From NCBI GenBank assembly GCA_943737045.1, contig CALSFV010000452.1, positions 1 to 64,000 of the forward strand: a stretch of 64,000 nucleotides of DNA. The letters run 5' to 3'. This DNA comes from Parapristionchus giblindavisi (Eukaryota; Nematoda; Chromadorea; Rhabditida; Diplogasteridae). The position numbers and the translations under genes are program-made. Below the pieces are notes generated by a model. That model was not told the origin of the DNA and made no database searches. It worked only from the letters and a program-made list of their open reading frames with translations. Below are positions 4,201-30,293 of the stretch, piece after piece. The stretch's first letter is position 1. Each line of letters begins with the position of its first letter.

Positions 4201-7200
4201 TGTAGAGGATACGATAGTAGTATTACTGTAGATGAGGGTACGCTCGAATGACTGCTGTGGATGAGAGTACAATAGTTATATAGATCAGAGTACGATTGTA
4301 TTATTATTATTGTAGATGTGACTATAATAGAAGGATTACTGTAGATGATTTCAATAGATAAAATGGCAAAAGACTCCTGGAGGTATGGGGAATCGAACCC
4401 CAGACTTCTCGCATGCAAAGCGAGCGCTCTACCCCTGAGCTATACCCCCACGTTTTGTCCTCGTTCTAAACACACACTCTCTCGCTCGGGTCAGACGATA
4501 GGCGGACAGGTGTGATGAGGGGGCGGTTGTGGCAGATGACTAGACCTCACTACACAAAGATCAAAGTTCAAAGATCAAAAATCAAAGACCAAACTACAGA
4601 TGCCAACAACGCCTGCTTCAACTTCGGCTGCAGTGGTGAGGAGTTCTTGAAGGCGCTGACCAAACCCCGCGTACGCGTCGGTACAGAATGGGTCAACAAG
4701 GGACAGAACCTTGAGCAGGTAAATTCAAAAGATCAAAGTTCAAAGATAAAAGATAAAAGATCAATGATCAAAGATCAATATTTGCAGGTCAGCTGGGCCG
4801 TGTCCGGTCTGGCCAAGGCCATCTACGCCCGTATGTTCAAGTGGCTCATCTCTCGCTGTAACAAGACCCTTGACGCGAAGGAGATCGAGAGAAAGTTCGT
4901 TTGATCTTTGATCTTTGATCTCTGTACTTTGCAGTTTATGTTGATCTTTGATCTTTATACTCTGTAGCCTAATAAAATTAATGGCAGGTACTTCATCGGT
5001 GTGCTCGATATCGCCGGTTTCGAAATTTTCGATGTACGTTATTGTTTGATCTTTGATCTTTGATCTTTGATCTCTGATCTCCGATCTTTGACCTTTGATA
5101 TGTTACAGTTCAACTCCTTCGAGCAGCTCTGGATTAACTTCGTAAACGAGCGTCTCCAGCAGTTCTTCAACCACCACATGTTCGTCCTCGAACAGGAGGT
5201 AAACCAGTTTCCCGGTTTCCCGGTTTCCCACTTTCGGAAACCCACTTCCCAGTTTTCCAGTTTCCCGAAACCCATTATCCATTACCCATTTGTAGGAGTA
5301 CAAGCGTGAAGGTATCGCCTGGACCTTCATCGACTTCGGTCTCGATCTTCAGGCCTGCATTGAGCTCATCGAGAAGGTAATTTACTGGTTTGCCGGTTTC
5401 CTATTTTCCTATTTCCCGTTTTCCAATTACTGGTTTACCAGTTTCCTGTTCCCCATTTTCCAAATACTTTTTACCTGTTTCCCATTTCCCGTTTTCTAAT
5501 GACTACCCACTTTTACTGGTTTACCATTTCCCGTTCTCCAATGATTACCCAATTTACAGCCTCTGGGTATCATCTCCATGCTCGACGAGGAGTGCATCGT
5601 GCCCAAGGCGTCGGATATGACCTACGTGCAGAAGCTGAACGACCAGCATCTGGGCAAGCACGCCAACTTCCAGAAGCCCAGACCACCCAAGGGCAAGCAG
5701 GTACAGTGATGACCAAAATAAAAAAAAAACAAAAACATCTTTTGGCTTTTTGTAGTCGATAACCTTACTTGTAGTTAACCATCCGTGTCTGTATGCGTTG
5801 ATATTACGTACAAAGTAGCCAACATTTTGTGGGCATACTCAAAGTTTTGTCAATTAGTCGTTTGATCAATCAAGAGAAATATCAATAAATAGAAATGAAC
5901 CAATCGATAATTTTTCCTAATATTTTGCAGGCCGAGGCCCACTTCGCCATCGTTCACTACGCCGGCACTGTGCGCTACAACGCCACCAACTTCCTCGAGA
6001 AGAACAAGGTAGATATTTGATCTTTGATCTTTGATCTTTGATCTTTGCTTTTCGTAGGGTAAAGTAATATGACCCTTAAAGGACCCCCTCAACGACACTG
6101 CTGTCGCTGTTCTCAAGCATGCCACTGACAACCAGCTCATTCTTGATATTTGGTCCGATTACGTCACTCAGGTACGGTAGATTACGGTAGAATAGAGGTT
6201 ACGGTAGATTACGGTAGGATGGAAGTTATGGTAGATCACGGTAGGACGGTGGTTACGGTAGATACGATCATAACTAAAGTAACCATGTTACAGGAAGAGG
6301 CTGCTGCTCTCGCCAAGGAAGGAGGCGGCGGAGGAAAGAGAGTGAGTACTGTAGTTCAATCGGATCAGATGCATCTTCCGATCGTCTCACAATGATCAAA
6401 GAACTCTGCCTATCTTGTTCAATCGTGTCACATTCATGATTTCAGGGAAAGTCATCATCGTTCATGACCGTGTCCATGATCTACCGTGAGTCGCTCAACA
6501 ACCTCATGACTATGCTCTACCAGGTACTGTCAGTCGATATTACGGTAGTTGAATCGGGTCAGATTCAACAGTTATTTGGAGATTACGGTAGTTCAATCTT
6601 GTCACACTTCCAGACTCACCCTCACTTCATCCGTTGTATCATTCCCAACGAGAAGAAGGCGTCCGGCGTGATCGACTCCGCTCTCGTGCTCAATCAGGTG
6701 AGTTAATGGTCTTGAGTGATAAAAAATGGCAAAAGATTCCTGGAGGTACGGGGAATCGAACTCCAGACTTCTCGCATGCAAAGCACTCCTGAGCTATACC
6801 CCCACATCAGGTCATTTAGGGGTCTATTTATAAGTACATCTACGTTCTTTAACGCAATCCCTTTCAGCTCACCTGCAACGGTGTACTGGAAGGTATCAGA
6901 ATTTGCAGAAAGGGATTCCCCAACAGGTAAAACTAAAAGTAATCGATATTTGATTGAACTAATCAATAATCTCGTTCTAGAATGATCTACCCCGACTTCA
7001 AGCACCGTTACGCCATCCTCGCTGCCGATGGAGCGAAGGACCCTGACATCAAGAAGGTACTGTAGGGGTACTGTAGGAATACTGTAGGGATTACTGTGAT
7101 ACTGTAGTGTCGCTCTAGGAGTACGGTGGAAATCCGTACGAGACCCTGATTCCTGATTACAGGCTTCCACTAATATCACCGACAAGCTGTGCAACGACGG

Positions 7201-25415: not shown

Positions 25416-25420
25416 AACAT
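25416..25420. repeat. 5-bp target-site duplication of the BEL/Pao element
   Basis: AACAT immediately left of the 5' LTR; the same AACAT follows the 3' LTR at 30123-30127. Confidence 0.8.
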
Positions 25421-25932
25421 TGTAGCGAAACCGCTACTTAAATCATAATTAATTAGCAAAGATTCATAAATAAAGTCAGAATGCGATAGTAAGTAGTCTG
25501 CAGCTGACGGCAAGTATACAGTAAGACAGTAAGATTCAAATTCATAAGCGTAGAGCGTCTCACACAGAATACTACAGTAAGATTCTCGCTCTCACAATTT
25601 CACTTCTGGCCTATGATTTCTCATTAATTCTACGTCAGCGGCCACGTTCACGCCGGTTTTTCCTTTAACTTATCTTACTTATTATTCCATATTTCCCTGC
25701 TATATTCATATCACATATTCTCGTCAGTACTCAGATTATTCCTGTTCGTTAGACCTCATAATCAGACAGAAAACATGTATGAAATCATGTCATCATATCT
25801 CAGAACTTTACCTCAAATCAGTCGACGTTATCCTTCTTTCCCTTCGTCGTCTTCCCCCATTTGCCCACTTCGCTCTCTAGTTATTTTGTTGTTTTAACGT
25901 ATATTTTTCGCTCACTTAACTTCGTTATATTG

Positions 25933-25954
25933 TGTTTAATTACCCAAGTTTGAG
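25933..25954 (+). promoter_or_regulatory. SL1 spliced-leader sequence inside the 5' LTR
   Basis: TTTAATTACCCAAGTTTGAG plus the G before it matches 21 of the 22 nt of nematode SL1; only the first G is replaced by T. GT follows directly (25955-25956), as the donor does in the SL1 RNA gene, but the sequence after that (CGCACGG) is unlike the rest of an SL RNA. Confidence 0.92.
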
Positions 25955-26131
25955 GTCGCACGGCGGATCCCAGACTGGACACCTATTCACCCCTATTCTC
26001 CCCCCGCAGAAAGCAGAATTCATACCCAGAGAAAGGTCACGGTCAGATCTCTGAGGTTTCATTCATATACTATCAGATTGATCTCATATAAGTGAATTCC
26101 CCATTGTAGTATATTCAGAGTAAACATAATT

Positions 26132-26137
26132 AATAAA
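26132..26137 (+). terminator. Poly(A) signal in the LTR
   Basis: AATAAA in TTAATAAATATTC, 195 nt after the leader start. In the 3' LTR the same signal would end the element's transcript. Confidence 0.6.
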
Positions 26138-26272
26138 TATTCTTTTGTTAATTCAATTTCTCGTTCTATCACACAACAGGGATCACAGAAGGGACAATTC
26201 TGTAGTATTTAATCATCTTTTCTTATCTTGAACCTAGACAAGTAGTCATAGTATCCCACGGGAACGACTATA

Positions 26273-26286
26273 TGGTGCATTGGTCC
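26273..26286 (+). other. Primer-binding site, tRNA-Gly-like
   Basis: TGGTGCATTGGTCC directly follows the LTR. TGGTGCAT matches the complement of a tRNA-Gly 3' end plus CCA exactly; 3 of the next 6 positions differ. Confidence 0.65.
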
Positions 26287-26476
26287 ACATAAGAATCCAG
26301 ATTCGGCCGAGTTATTAGTCTTACGCAGATTATAGCTTCATAAGAATCATATTGTTTCATCATCAGAATTCATTCAGATCTTGATATCCACGGATAAAAC
26401 AGATCAAACTTTTCATTCATTCTCTCATATCATCATTCATCATTCATATTAGACCCGCGTGGCAGGCAAAGTCAGT

Positions 26477-28891
26477 ATGAATACCGATCGAAGTGAATAC
26501 AGAGTTGACTATGAGCTAATTGAGACTACCAGAATACAACTCATAAAACATATTGACTTACTCACAGAGACTATCAGAGAGATCATAAGATGCAAAACTC
26601 GAAATGACCATCAAGATCTAAGTGAGAAAGTTGATGAGATTGATCTTGATATCAGAATAGAAACAGATGCTTATTCACATTTGTGGCAGAAATTGGAGGA
26701 TAAGGTAACATCTATCGATCAAGAAGAGCTACAGAGAAGGGAGCTAAGGACTTTCAATGCTGTGAAAGGTCATGTAGATGAAAGATCCAAACCCTCAGAT
26801 CCAAAGGCTCTTGATTCATTCTCGATTCGTATGCTCAATGCAGCAAAACTAGCACTCAATAATAACTCAGATTCAATCATCAGAGCACTCAAACTTCAAG
26901 CAGCGGCTGTCAAAGAAGAAGAAGTGTATCATGATGTACCAGAAGATCAGATTGTATCGTATGAGAAACCACCTCTTCCTGTACTCAGTGTGCCGATATT
27001 CGATGGATCAAACAGGTCAGAATATCATATCTTTATCAAACTATTCACATCACTGATCAAGGAAAGGAAAGGTCTTCAGAATACACAGAAACATCTATAC
27101 CTTGAAGGATACCTCAGAGGTGAAGCACTAAAGGTGATCAAACCCTATCCAAGAGATGGGTCATTTCTATCAGAAGCTCTAGAAGCGCTCAAAGATGAAT
27201 ATGGTAGTCAGAAAGAAACAGCTTCATACATCTATCAGACTATTCATAGAATAAGAGCCAATTCAGACAGAGCGAATGATCAGATAGACTTGGCCAGAGA
27301 GCTTCTCGCTTTGGCTCAACAGCTGAAGAACCTTGGAGAAGACACAAAAATCTCTTGCTTGATTCTCATAGACAAGTTCGCGCCAATATACAGACGCAAA
27401 CTGCATGAGGCAGATCAGAATAAGGAGGCCATACCTATGCTAAAATTCCTCATCAGTCATATCAGAAGTGAAATCCAACTGGATTTAGCTTCAGGTACAA
27501 CAGATCTCAGAGATATCAAAGATGCAAGGCAGAGTTGTTATGATAATTCCATGAACTCATACGATCATTCCTCTAATCAATATCATACATCATTTCAACC
27601 TCGTATCGATCCATTCATGAACAATGGTTATCTATCGAATCCTTCAATAACACCATCAAATCCATTTCATCCATCAAATACTTCCAATCAATCAGATCAA
27701 AAGAAGACAAATCGTCAACCATTATGTGTGTTCTGTGGGAAGCACCCCAACCCTAGTGTGTGTAGATGTGTCCCCATGATCAAAGCTAGACAGGAGATAG
27801 TACAACAGAAAGGACTCTGTCCTAGATGTCTATCCTCAGAACAACATTCAAATTGTAATCAGAGTTGCTCCCTCTGCAGTGGTCCTCATCATGATGCAAT
27901 ATGTTTCGCAAGTATAGCTAAGGTCACAGGACTAACAATATCAGTCAATCACACAGACAATCAGAACACACAAACATCCAGACTACTCACAGCAAAAGCA
28001 ATGATATCAGATAGTAGTCAAAGAACAGATCGAACGAGACGCAAATCAGAAGAAATCGATATTCTTCTAGATACTGGTGCTCAGATGAATCTCATTTCTA
28101 GAAGTGTCGTGCAGAAGATGGGAATCAAGCCTTCGGGAAGCAAGGTTCTCACGCTGTCACTGGCTACTGGAGTCGAGAAGGAGCCGCAGTGCTACGACAT
28201 CGTCAAGGTCAAGGTTCGTAAGATTGACAAATCTTATCATTGCATAGAGGCTGTGGTGCTGGATGGCCCTGTCACCAGCGCCATACAAGTACGTAGTCTG
28301 TCTACAGAGGATCTCAACTATATCAGAGTAAACAAATTCAGATTGGCTGATAATCCCAACAGAAATGGTACTATTAATCCTCAGTTGCTATTGGGTGTGT
28401 CAGATACTCTCTCATTGATTCATACTCTATCCAAGCATACTCTTCCGAGCGGTCTAAGAATCCATGATACAGCAATTGGATTGGTCATGGGAGGCACACA
28501 ATCAGAAAGTAGAGCTCAAGAAGAGCAACTCAGTATAAATCAAATAGCTATAATCAATACTATCAATCAGAGTCTGTCAGTTGGAAAAGATGAAATTGAA
28601 CCTCCTGAAAATGACCCAGAATTCATCAAACGAATGAAAGAACATCTCGGTATCGTAGATTGGTCAAAGACTAAGACCAAATCAAGTCAACTGAAAAGCA
28701 TGAACAAGAAGATTGACAAAGACTCATACAACAGAATCGAAACAGACAATATCAAATCAAGACCTCGATCAGATATCAATCACTCTCTCATCAACAAATA
28801 CAAGCATACTATTAAGGCACAGCAGAATCAAGAAGTGAATGTATCAGATCATGCAAGGGTGATGGCAGATCACGGAGTGCAGTCTGTATAA
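26477..28891 (+). CDS. Gag-protease polyprotein of BEL/Pao retrotransposon
   Basis: Uninterrupted 804-residue frame from the first ATG (an in-frame GTG lies 18 nt upstream). Order: an N-terminal helical segment; a Pao-type gag core (DUF1759-like) around residues 175-345, with PIFDGSNRSEYHIFIKLFTS and FLISHIRSEIQLDL; a cysteine/histidine zinc-knuckle region near 420-480 (CVFCGKHPNPSVCRC, CPRCL, CSLCSGPHHDAIC); and a retropepsin-like domain with active-site LLDTGA near 530 (DUF1758-like). The frame stops where full elements continue into reverse transcriptase. RT, RNase H and integrase are absent before the 3' LTR, so this copy can supply capsid and protease but not cDNA synthesis or integration. 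The codon use is AT-rich, unlike the C-ending codons of the myosin. Confidence 0.9.
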   Translation: MNTDRSEYRVDYELIETTRIQLIKHIDLLTETIREIIRCKTRNDHQDLSEKVDEIDLDIRIETDAYSHLWQKLEDKVTSIDQEELQRRELRTFNAVKGHVDERSKPSDPKALDSFSIRMLNAAKLALNNNSDSIIRALKLQAAAVKEEEVYHDVPEDQIVSYEKPPLPVLSVPIFDGSNRSEYHIFIKLFTSLIKERKGLQNTQKHLYLEGYLRGEALKVIKPYPRDGSFLSEALEALKDEYGSQKETASYIYQTIHRIRANSDRANDQIDLARELLALAQQLKNLGEDTKISCLILIDKFAPIYRRKLHEADQNKEAIPMLKFLISHIRSEIQLDLASGTTDLRDIKDARQSCYDNSMNSYDHSSNQYHTSFQPRIDPFMNNGYLSNPSITPSNPFHPSNTSNQSDQKKTNRQPLCVFCGKHPNPSVCRCVPMIKARQEIVQQKGLCPRCLSSEQHSNCNQSCSLCSGPHHDAICFASIAKVTGLTISVNHTDNQNTQTSRLLTAKAMISDSSQRTDRTRRKSEEIDILLDTGAQMNLISRSVVQKMGIKPSGSKVLTLSLATGVEKEPQCYDIVKVKVRKIDKSYHCIEAVVLDGPVTSAIQVRSLSTEDLNYIRVNKFRLADNPNRNGTINPQLLLGVSDTLSLIHTLSKHTLPSGLRIHDTAIGLVMGGTQSESRAQEEQLSINQIAIINTINQSLSVGKDEIEPPENDPEFIKRMKEHLGIVDWSKTKTKSSQLKSMNKKIDKDSYNRIETDNIKSRPRSDINHSLINKYKHTIKAQQNQEVNVSDHARVMADHGVQSV

Positions 28892-29274
28892 CCAGCCTCT
28901 CCGTGATTTCATGGTGATGACACATATTCAGTGTTACCCATTGTCATCCATTTGTATTTTGTTTTATCATATCCCATATCTATTCAGCATACATAATAAT
29001 CATACATATTCATCATAGAACCCAAACATATACCTATATCATATATCGTTCTCACAAAAGATCAAAGATCACCCACAACTATTTCTCCTCTTCAAAGAGG
29101 GGGAGGGAGTCCAACGACTCTCAAACTCATGAATCATACATACCATAATCAGACAATCAAACAACTAGACCATAATTTTTCGATTTCCAGATAGAATCAT
29201 AAACATCATAATATCCTTTCTTTCAAAATGCATCTTTTCAAACTCGCCGTAGGCGAGCTTCAGAAAGGCGGGAG
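28892..29274 (+). other. Internal 3' region of the retrotransposon with polypurine tract
   Basis: Non-coding sequence from the gag-protease stop to the 3' LTR. AGAAAGGCGGGAG (29262-29274) directly before the LTR is the likely polypurine tract. A second purine run, AAAGAGGGGGAGGGAG, lies near 29093. GATCAAAG repeats occur near 29060. Confidence 0.7.
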
Positions 29275-30122
29275 TGTAGCGAAACCGCTACTTAAATCAT
29301 AATTAATTAGCAAAGATTCATAAATAAAGTCAGAATGCGATAGTAAGTAGTCTGCAGCTGACGGCAAGTATACAGTAAGACAGTAAGATTCAAATTCATA
29401 AGCGTAGAGCGTCTCACACAGAATACTACAGTAAGATTCTCGCTCTCACAATTTCACTTCTGGCCTATGATTTCTCATTAATTCTACGTCAGCGGCCACG
29501 TTCACGCCGGTTTTTCCTTTAACTTATCTTACTTATTATTCCATATTTCCCTGCTATATTCATATCACATATTCTCGTCAGTACTCAGATTATTCCTGTT
29601 CGTTAGACCTCATAATCAGACAGAAAACATGTATGAAATCATGTCATCATATCTCAGAACTTTACCTCAAATCAGTCGACGTTATCCTTCTTTCCCTTCG
29701 TCGTCTTCCCCCATTTGCCCACTTCGCTCTCTAGTTATTTTGTTGTTTTAACGTATATTTTTCGCTCACTTAACTTCGTTATATTGTGTTTAATTACCCA
29801 AGTTTGAGGTCGCACGGCGGATCCCAGACTGGACACCTACCCCTATTCTCCCCCCGCAGAAAGCAGAATTCATACCCAGAGAAAGGTCACGGTCAGATCT
29901 CTGAGGTTTCATTCATATACTATCAGATTGATCTCATATAAGTGAATTCCCCATTGTAGTATATTCAGAGTAAACATAATTAATAAATATTCTTTTGTTA
30001 ATTCAATTTCTCGTTCTATCACACAACAGGGATCACAGAAGGGACAATTCTGTAGTATTTAATCATCTTTTCTTATCTTGAACCTAGACAAGTAGTCATA
30101 GTATCCCACGGGAACGACTATA
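29275..30122 (+). mobile_element. 3' LTR of BEL/Pao-type retrotransposon
   Basis: 848 bp, same ends as the 5' LTR. Contains the second SL1 copy at 29787-29808. AACAT follows at 30123. Confidence 0.93.
29787..29808 (+). promoter_or_regulatory. SL1 spliced-leader sequence inside the 3' LTR
   Basis: Same 21 of 22 match and GT context as the 5' LTR copy. Confidence 0.9.
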
Positions 30123-30293
30123 AACATTTTTTATCATTTGGTTTAGTGTTCTCTCAGCTGGGATGCCATGATCTCTCCATTCTCTTTCCCCCTATTGATA
30201 TCCTCAACTAGGCTCAGTCCATTATCACAATTTCATTCCATTCATTACTACTCTTCATTTCTTTGTTTCACACCATTTGTTCGCTAAATGTGA

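Follow-up and report, generated by a model that had tools for sequence, protein, structure and literature searches.

In the genome of Parapristionchus giblindavisi, the nematode spliced leader SL1 lies within the long terminal repeats (LTRs) of several BEL/Pao families. It is present there in many copies, is followed by GT, is conserved against changed flanks, and coincides with a breakpoint between the sequences on its two sides. Judging from these sequence comparisons, we consider it reasonably probable that the leader is a start/leader module derived from an SL RNA, with its own 5' splice site, which lies at the start of R and is kept by selection.

Structure of the SL1-bearing element

The window, i.e., the whole stretch of 64,000 nucleotides that was analyzed, contains an insertion of about 4.7 kb on the forward strand (25421-30122), which was recognized as a young-looking, non-autonomous LTR element of the BEL/Pao type from its LTR pair, its target duplication, and the domains of its open frame. 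The sequence AACAT flanks both ends (25416-25420 and 30123-30127). Alignment of the LTR pair delimited a 5' LTR of 852 bp (25421-26272) and a 3' LTR of 848 bp (29275-30122), which were 99.53% identical over 852 columns; the sole difference was one 4-bp indel, and the insertion therefore looks young. Paired LTRs of 0.2-1.2 kb with a short target duplication are expected of BEL/Pao elements, as are gag, protease, and a tRNA-Gly or tRNA-Arg primer site. The primer binding site TGGTGCATTGG (26273-26283, forward strand) fits the 3' end of tRNA-Gly(GCC) of the same genome with one mismatch, and that of another SL1-bearing element (L023), TGGTGCATCGG, matches it exactly.

The open frame (26453-28891, forward strand; first ATG at or near 26477) contains DUF1759 (gag) at 7.8e-10 and an aspartyl protease at 2.2e-08, but RT and A17 gave no match in it at E up to 1, indicating that this is a non-autonomous copy. 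A relative with SL1 in both LTRs, the C3 element, has both RVT_1 and Peptidase_A17. The preliminary description had called the element BEL/Pao; this holds for the group; the window copy itself has no pol with RT (A17 region). No gag homologue was found at E <= 0.001 among 7993 scored candidates. A purine-rich stretch, AGAAAGGCGGGAG (29262-29274, forward strand), noted by eye before the 3' LTR, is a possible polypurine tract. In addition, a CCGCGTGGCAGGC-type motif (26455-26467, forward strand) is complementary to the anticodon arm of tRNA-Gly. Such a complement to tRNA-Gly(GCC), besides the primer site, was observed at 10 of 20 sites examined (the window's, L010, L012, L014, L017, L027, L029, L051, L058, and L071) and is possibly an extended primer contact. 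The same complementarity makes it less likely that the CCGCGTGGCAGGC motif, which precedes gag, serves as a 3' splice site.

The leader, TGTTTAATTACCCAAGTTTGAG, occurs at 25933-25954 in the 5' LTR and at 29787-29808 in the 3' LTR (both on the forward strand), at the corresponding place in each. It matches 21 of the 22 nt of SL1, with T for G at position 1 as the one mismatch, and both copies continue with GTCGCAC; the GT right after the leader (25955-25956 in the 5' LTR) may act as a 5' splice site. No match was obtained in 100 shuffles of the window, even at up to three mismatches. The preliminary description was thus right about the match in both LTRs and in placing it beyond chance for 64 kb. 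It had also seen no evidence of the remainder of the SL RNA gene, and we agree: the window LTRs have the leader and the GT of an SL1 RNA gene, but not its Sm site and 3' stem-loop. Searched over 25850-26300 with E values of up to 10, the Rfam SL1 model gave no match, and no Sm-like AAATTTTGGA was found between 22201 and 30626 at up to one mismatch. The boundary between U3 (25421-25933) and a proposed R start at 25934 was placed by the break in history described below, and AATAAA at 26132-26137 (forward strand) is a possible poly(A) signal ending R. In the whole window, Rfam gave a single match at the gathering threshold, a tRNA-Ala(TGC) gene (4377-4450, reverse strand).

Distribution of SL1 in the genome

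A 20-mer of the leader, searched at up to two mismatches, matched 792 sites in the genome versus 1 for the reversed pattern. Listed among these were 100 exact places, ordered by contig number and hence not a random sample; the 87 sites read comprised 84 of these 100, the window's two sites, and one site with three mismatches. By context, 50 of the 87 lay in LTRs, 8 in SL RNA genes, and 21 at the heads of short repeats, and 8 were unclassified. The LTR sites belonged to families A (13), B (13), C (15), D (3), E (3), F (2), and G (1). The possibility, raised in the preliminary description, that only a single copy carries the leader therefore does not hold. A 23-mer searched against a viral contig database gave 0 matches.

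SL RNA genes formed three array types (L062, L032, and L115), whose units contain an Sm site and a 3' stem-loop and recur about every 2.9 kb, 1159 bp, and 800 bp, respectively. These types scored 34-40 bits with Rfam SL1, below the gathering score of 75. A whole-genome search with RF00198 gave no match, but none was obtained in any control either, and Rfam gave no gathering match on 20 loci. GT followed the 20-mer at two of the eight unclassified sites, some of which may be mRNA retrocopies. L019, L049, L053, L054, L057, and L059 had the exact 20-mer without GT after it and are possibly retrocopies of trans-spliced mRNAs or fragments. Three elements with SL1 in their LTRs (L022, L023, and L027) adjoin or sit inside tandem arrays, with a period of about 912 bp at L022/L023 and about 233 bp at L027.

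A search for the Peptidase_A17 domain returned 66 rows, which were compared with exact SL1 sites, so that mutated or unlisted leaders escape these counts. Among the 31 elements whose frames span 1600 aa or more, 19 had exact SL1 on at least one side; this number leaves out C1:1086534, whose SL1 sites on both sides possibly belong to neighbours. In 15 of the 31, SL1 was found both before and after, at similar distances (3.4-4.1 kb and 3.5-5.7 kb, respectively); C33:357767 had it on one side. When 11 small stretches at guessed places of other long-frame elements were read, SL1 was found in three (C149, C211, and C217, followed by GT, GT, and GC) and not in eight. Shorter frames with a full-length A17 match (14 elements) had SL1 on both sides in no case and on one side in one, while those with a partial match (20 rows) had it on both sides in 15, on one side in one, and on neither in four. 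SL1 is widespread but not general among the BEL/Pao elements of this genome.

Conservation of the leader and the following GT

G preceded the 20-mer probe at all 50 LTR sites, and GT followed it at 48, with GC and GG at one site each. The letters at -2/-1 were TG (40), GG (9), and CG (1). GC, a known minor 5' splice site, takes the place of GT in a family represented by L040 and L108.

One copy was compared from each of eight families (A-H), which are not fully independent because A and F are visibly related upstream. G and the 20-mer were invariant, although the 20-mer was the probe in seven families and its identity there is ascertained; outside the probe, G was found at +1 in eight families and T at +2 in seven. 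Flank identity between the families was 0.31-0.33 at -60 to -3, 0.39 at -2, and 0.23 at +3 to +20. The leader is thus conserved against its flanks between families, with the reservation that the 20-mer itself served as probe.

For family A, a search with R-U5 DNA lacking SL1 gave 40 matches, 39 of which reach the SL1 position (30 read directly and 9 taken from exact-pattern positions). The exact 20-mer was present in 38 of the 39, and L089 had one mismatch, so the neutral drift that the preliminary description had envisaged as an alternative is not seen. Over 32 rows (21 distinct), the 21 columns of the leader had a mean pairwise difference of 0.003. Upstream, the value was 0.057 from -50 to -8 and, leaving length changes out of account, 0 from -7 to -2; downstream, it was 0.237 from +3 to +30. 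The upstream flank close to the leader has thus also changed little in this young family. Seven further copies of family B were all exact, but they weigh little because the query included SL1. Selection on the leader relative to its flanks, as the preliminary description had suggested, is supported between families; within family A, the near upstream flank has changed little as well.

Breakpoint at SL1

Relatedness upstream of SL1 was compared with relatedness downstream using all rows. The correlation across SL1 was r = 0.04 in family A, 0.24 in B, and 0.29 in C; it was 0.95 between two adjoining upstream intervals in both A and B, and 0.15 (A), 0.38 (B), and 0.71 (C) between two adjoining downstream intervals. 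For example, L018 and L027 were 1.00 alike upstream and 0.70 downstream, while L018 and the window element were 1.00 alike downstream and 0.87 upstream. Four-gamete conflicts were counted for site pairs within 150 bp, leaving out L072 (A), L015 and L017 (B), and L056 and L033 (C), as in the gap scan. Conflicts were found in 148/155 (A), 112/144 (B), and 207/369 (C) pairs across SL1, compared with 7/575, 77/308, and 51/210 upstream and 123/467, 63/574, and 424/1096 downstream. As a breakpoint, the SL1 gap ranked 1 of 66 (A), 1 of 56 (B), and 2 of 61 (C), these gaps (-33 to 24, -2 to 22, and -3 to 37, respectively) being wider than most. In families A, B, and C, the parts before and after SL1 differ in their history. 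Sliding correlation showed other low spots in U3, near -385 to -355 and -220 to -160 in A and near -336 in B, which indicates exchange at places other than SL1 as well.

Template switching during first-strand transfer joins sequences at the RNA 5' end and within R, so that the breakpoint fits SL1 as the start of R. We infer from this that R, and hence the element RNA, starts at SL1, although homologous exchange inside the identical leader could also have made the joints. In L017 (4911-4934, oriented), SL1 is preceded by about 20 nt that stem from near the presumed end of R, and these in turn by a truncated U3; the joint shares 7 nt. This single case is likely a template-switch scar, as a faulty transfer would leave. 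On the other hand, the LTR sites L078 and L079, 4.9 kb apart, were 1.00 alike in U3 and 0.78 in the downstream part, a pattern that the R-start model leaves unexplained if both belong to one element.

AATAAA was found 189-197 nt after SL1 in 5/5 listed sites of family A and 140-147 nt after it in 5/5 listed sites of family B. No clear poly(A) signal was found within 400 nt in most listed C sites and both listed E sites. No shared upstream promoter element was found among the SL1 LTRs. Of 23 LTR sites listed, only the window's and L071 had a TATA box about 30 nt upstream of SL1, which was therefore dropped as a candidate; a TATA-like box was seen in 2/5 listed sites of family A.

Short repeats headed by SL1

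SL1 with GT also heads short repeats of about 125-165 nt, as estimated from pairwise matches, whose upstream flanks are unrelated; GT followed SL1 in 19 of 21 such sites. These repeats suggest that RNAs starting with SL1 exist in this genome. In 6 of 20 repeats examined (L039, L050, L063, L064, L068, and L074), a direct repeat of 11-14 nt ended 0 to 3 nt before the 20-mer, as when an RNA beginning with SL1 is inserted; in the remainder, direct repeats were shorter, displaced, or absent.

The short repeats also contain a hammerhead-like core, CTGATGA-hairpin-GAAACG (L013, L034, L036, L038, L039, L046, L047, L060, L063, L068, L069, L070, L073, L074, and others). It was present in 18 of 20 examined. 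In 14 of the 18, the stem reached 4 bp or more, against a mean of 3.64 and a maximum of 9 with shuffled stems (1000 shuffles); several of the real copies are near-identical. The Rfam hammerhead models gave no match at E up to 2 in eight loci.

Origin and possible function of the leader

The GT after the leader is what an SL RNA has and not what the end of a spliced exon would leave. The LTR sequence would thus have come from an SL RNA gene (leader plus the GT of its intron) rather than from a spliced mRNA. Under the model we favor, SL1 would form the 5' end of R, and thus the RNA start, in a set of BEL/Pao LTR families; RNA polymerase II would start at the leader's G, and SL1 would be an encoded exon of the element RNA, with a 5' splice site at its end. 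Transcription of SL RNA is said to need internal elements. The genome would be the unspliced RNA, with SL1 taking part in first-strand transfer, whereas an RNA in which cis-splicing has joined the encoded SL1 to an acceptor near gag would resemble a trans-spliced host message. We infer from sequence where the RNA starts, that the leader acts as a promoter, and that cis-splicing occurs; no proven 3' splice site for this cis-splicing was found. The preliminary description had offered two options, and its "own 5' leader" gains indirect support from the G, 20-mer, and GT shared by families at the expected U3/R recombination boundary.

An alternative is that the RNA starts upstream, that host SL1 is spliced onto the AG ending the encoded leader, and that reverse transcription rewrites SL1 in each cycle. 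This requires no promoter role and accounts for a leader that stays exact beside changed flanks, as well as for the breakpoint at SL1; the variable -2 letter would fit copying that stopped one letter before the cap. However, it does not require the GT kept at 48 of 50 sites, and the nematode splice acceptor is TTTTCAG, which TTTGAG matches poorly. In the accessible part of PMC3315495, Cer1 RNA of Caenorhabditis elegans is partly SL1 trans-spliced, but full-length Cer1 RNA is not. On balance, such renewal appears unlikely.

It also seems improbable that the leader is kept for a role in the mRNA, in translation or self recognition, with the promoter elsewhere in U3 and the GT used or merely inherited. 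The whole leader is kept, beyond what a splice site alone would need, and a nematode eIF4E/G complex reportedly works with the leader's stem-loop; against this, SL1-headed repeats with unrelated upstream flanks suggest that the leader has its own start signal. Passive capture, in which the leader was picked up when an ancestral element copied a trans-spliced transcript and has hitchhiked since, is the reading given for Brugia malayi, where the available text of PMC7181701 infers capture from 60 of 120 non-array SL1 sequences lying within 1 kb of PAO elements. It is very improbable here, and the other option of the preliminary description, acquisition from a trans-spliced transcript, is likewise not supported, because 48 of 50 LTR sites have GT where exon sequence would be expected and the leader stayed exact while flank identity fell to 0.23-0.39.

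Returning to an SL-RNA-derived start module, we put forward a bolder version only tentatively. SL1 might be a portable, transcribed start module common to unrelated retroelements (BEL/Pao LTRs and the short repeats with a hammerhead-like core), giving them a self-encoded, cis-spliced leader that mimics host trans-splicing. With its promoter within the RNA, SL1 would be copied along and thus be portable. If this is true, LTRs near genes could provide SL1 in cis, so that a gene whose message is otherwise trans-spliced would become cis-spliced. The role of the leader itself in the message is still argued. An exact leader amid drifting flanks offers a natural test of which SL1 letters matter, separate from the SL RNA's own needs (Sm site and stem-loop), which these elements lack, and the elements would provide a route to SL1-bearing messages without trans-splicing. 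Conversely, SL1 reads or genomic SL1 sites need not mean trans-splicing or retrocopies.

Comparison with known systems

Like the nematode SL1 RNA gene (Rfam RF00198), the LTRs have the leader followed by GT; unlike it, they have no Sm site or 3' stem-loop. The elements resemble Tas of Ascaris and other BEL/Pao elements, as described in the available portions of PMC8742986 and PMC3118150, in their DUF1759 gag, protease, tRNA-Gly primer, and LTR length, and in the A17 and RT that are found here in relatives of the window element; those portions mention no leader in the LTR. Cer1 of C. elegans is likewise a nematode LTR element whose spliced mRNA can carry SL1, but according to the part of PMC3315495 at hand it belongs to Gypsy/Ty3 and obtains the leader by trans-splicing, apparently not from its LTR. 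Pr77 of trypanosomatid retrotransposons, in the excerpted account of PMC8190864, is similarly a short promoter at the 5' end that is common to different retroelements within a single genome and is copied with the RNA; it differs in not being a spliced leader and in being carried by non-LTR elements.

The closest parallel is B. malayi, in which, according to the available text of PMC7181701, SL1 sequences outside the gene arrays lie beside Pao-type elements, sometimes on each side and on the same strand. That text infers that leaders were spliced onto expressed elements and then integrated, and it does not treat LTR position, GT, between-family conservation, or a breakpoint. We found no other report of SL1 with Pao elements in the open-licence literature. 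The association of SL1 with Pao elements was therefore already known; its position in the LTR, its conservation, and its place at the R boundary are added here, and we favor another origin for SL1 in the LTRs of this genome than the one proposed in PMC7181701.
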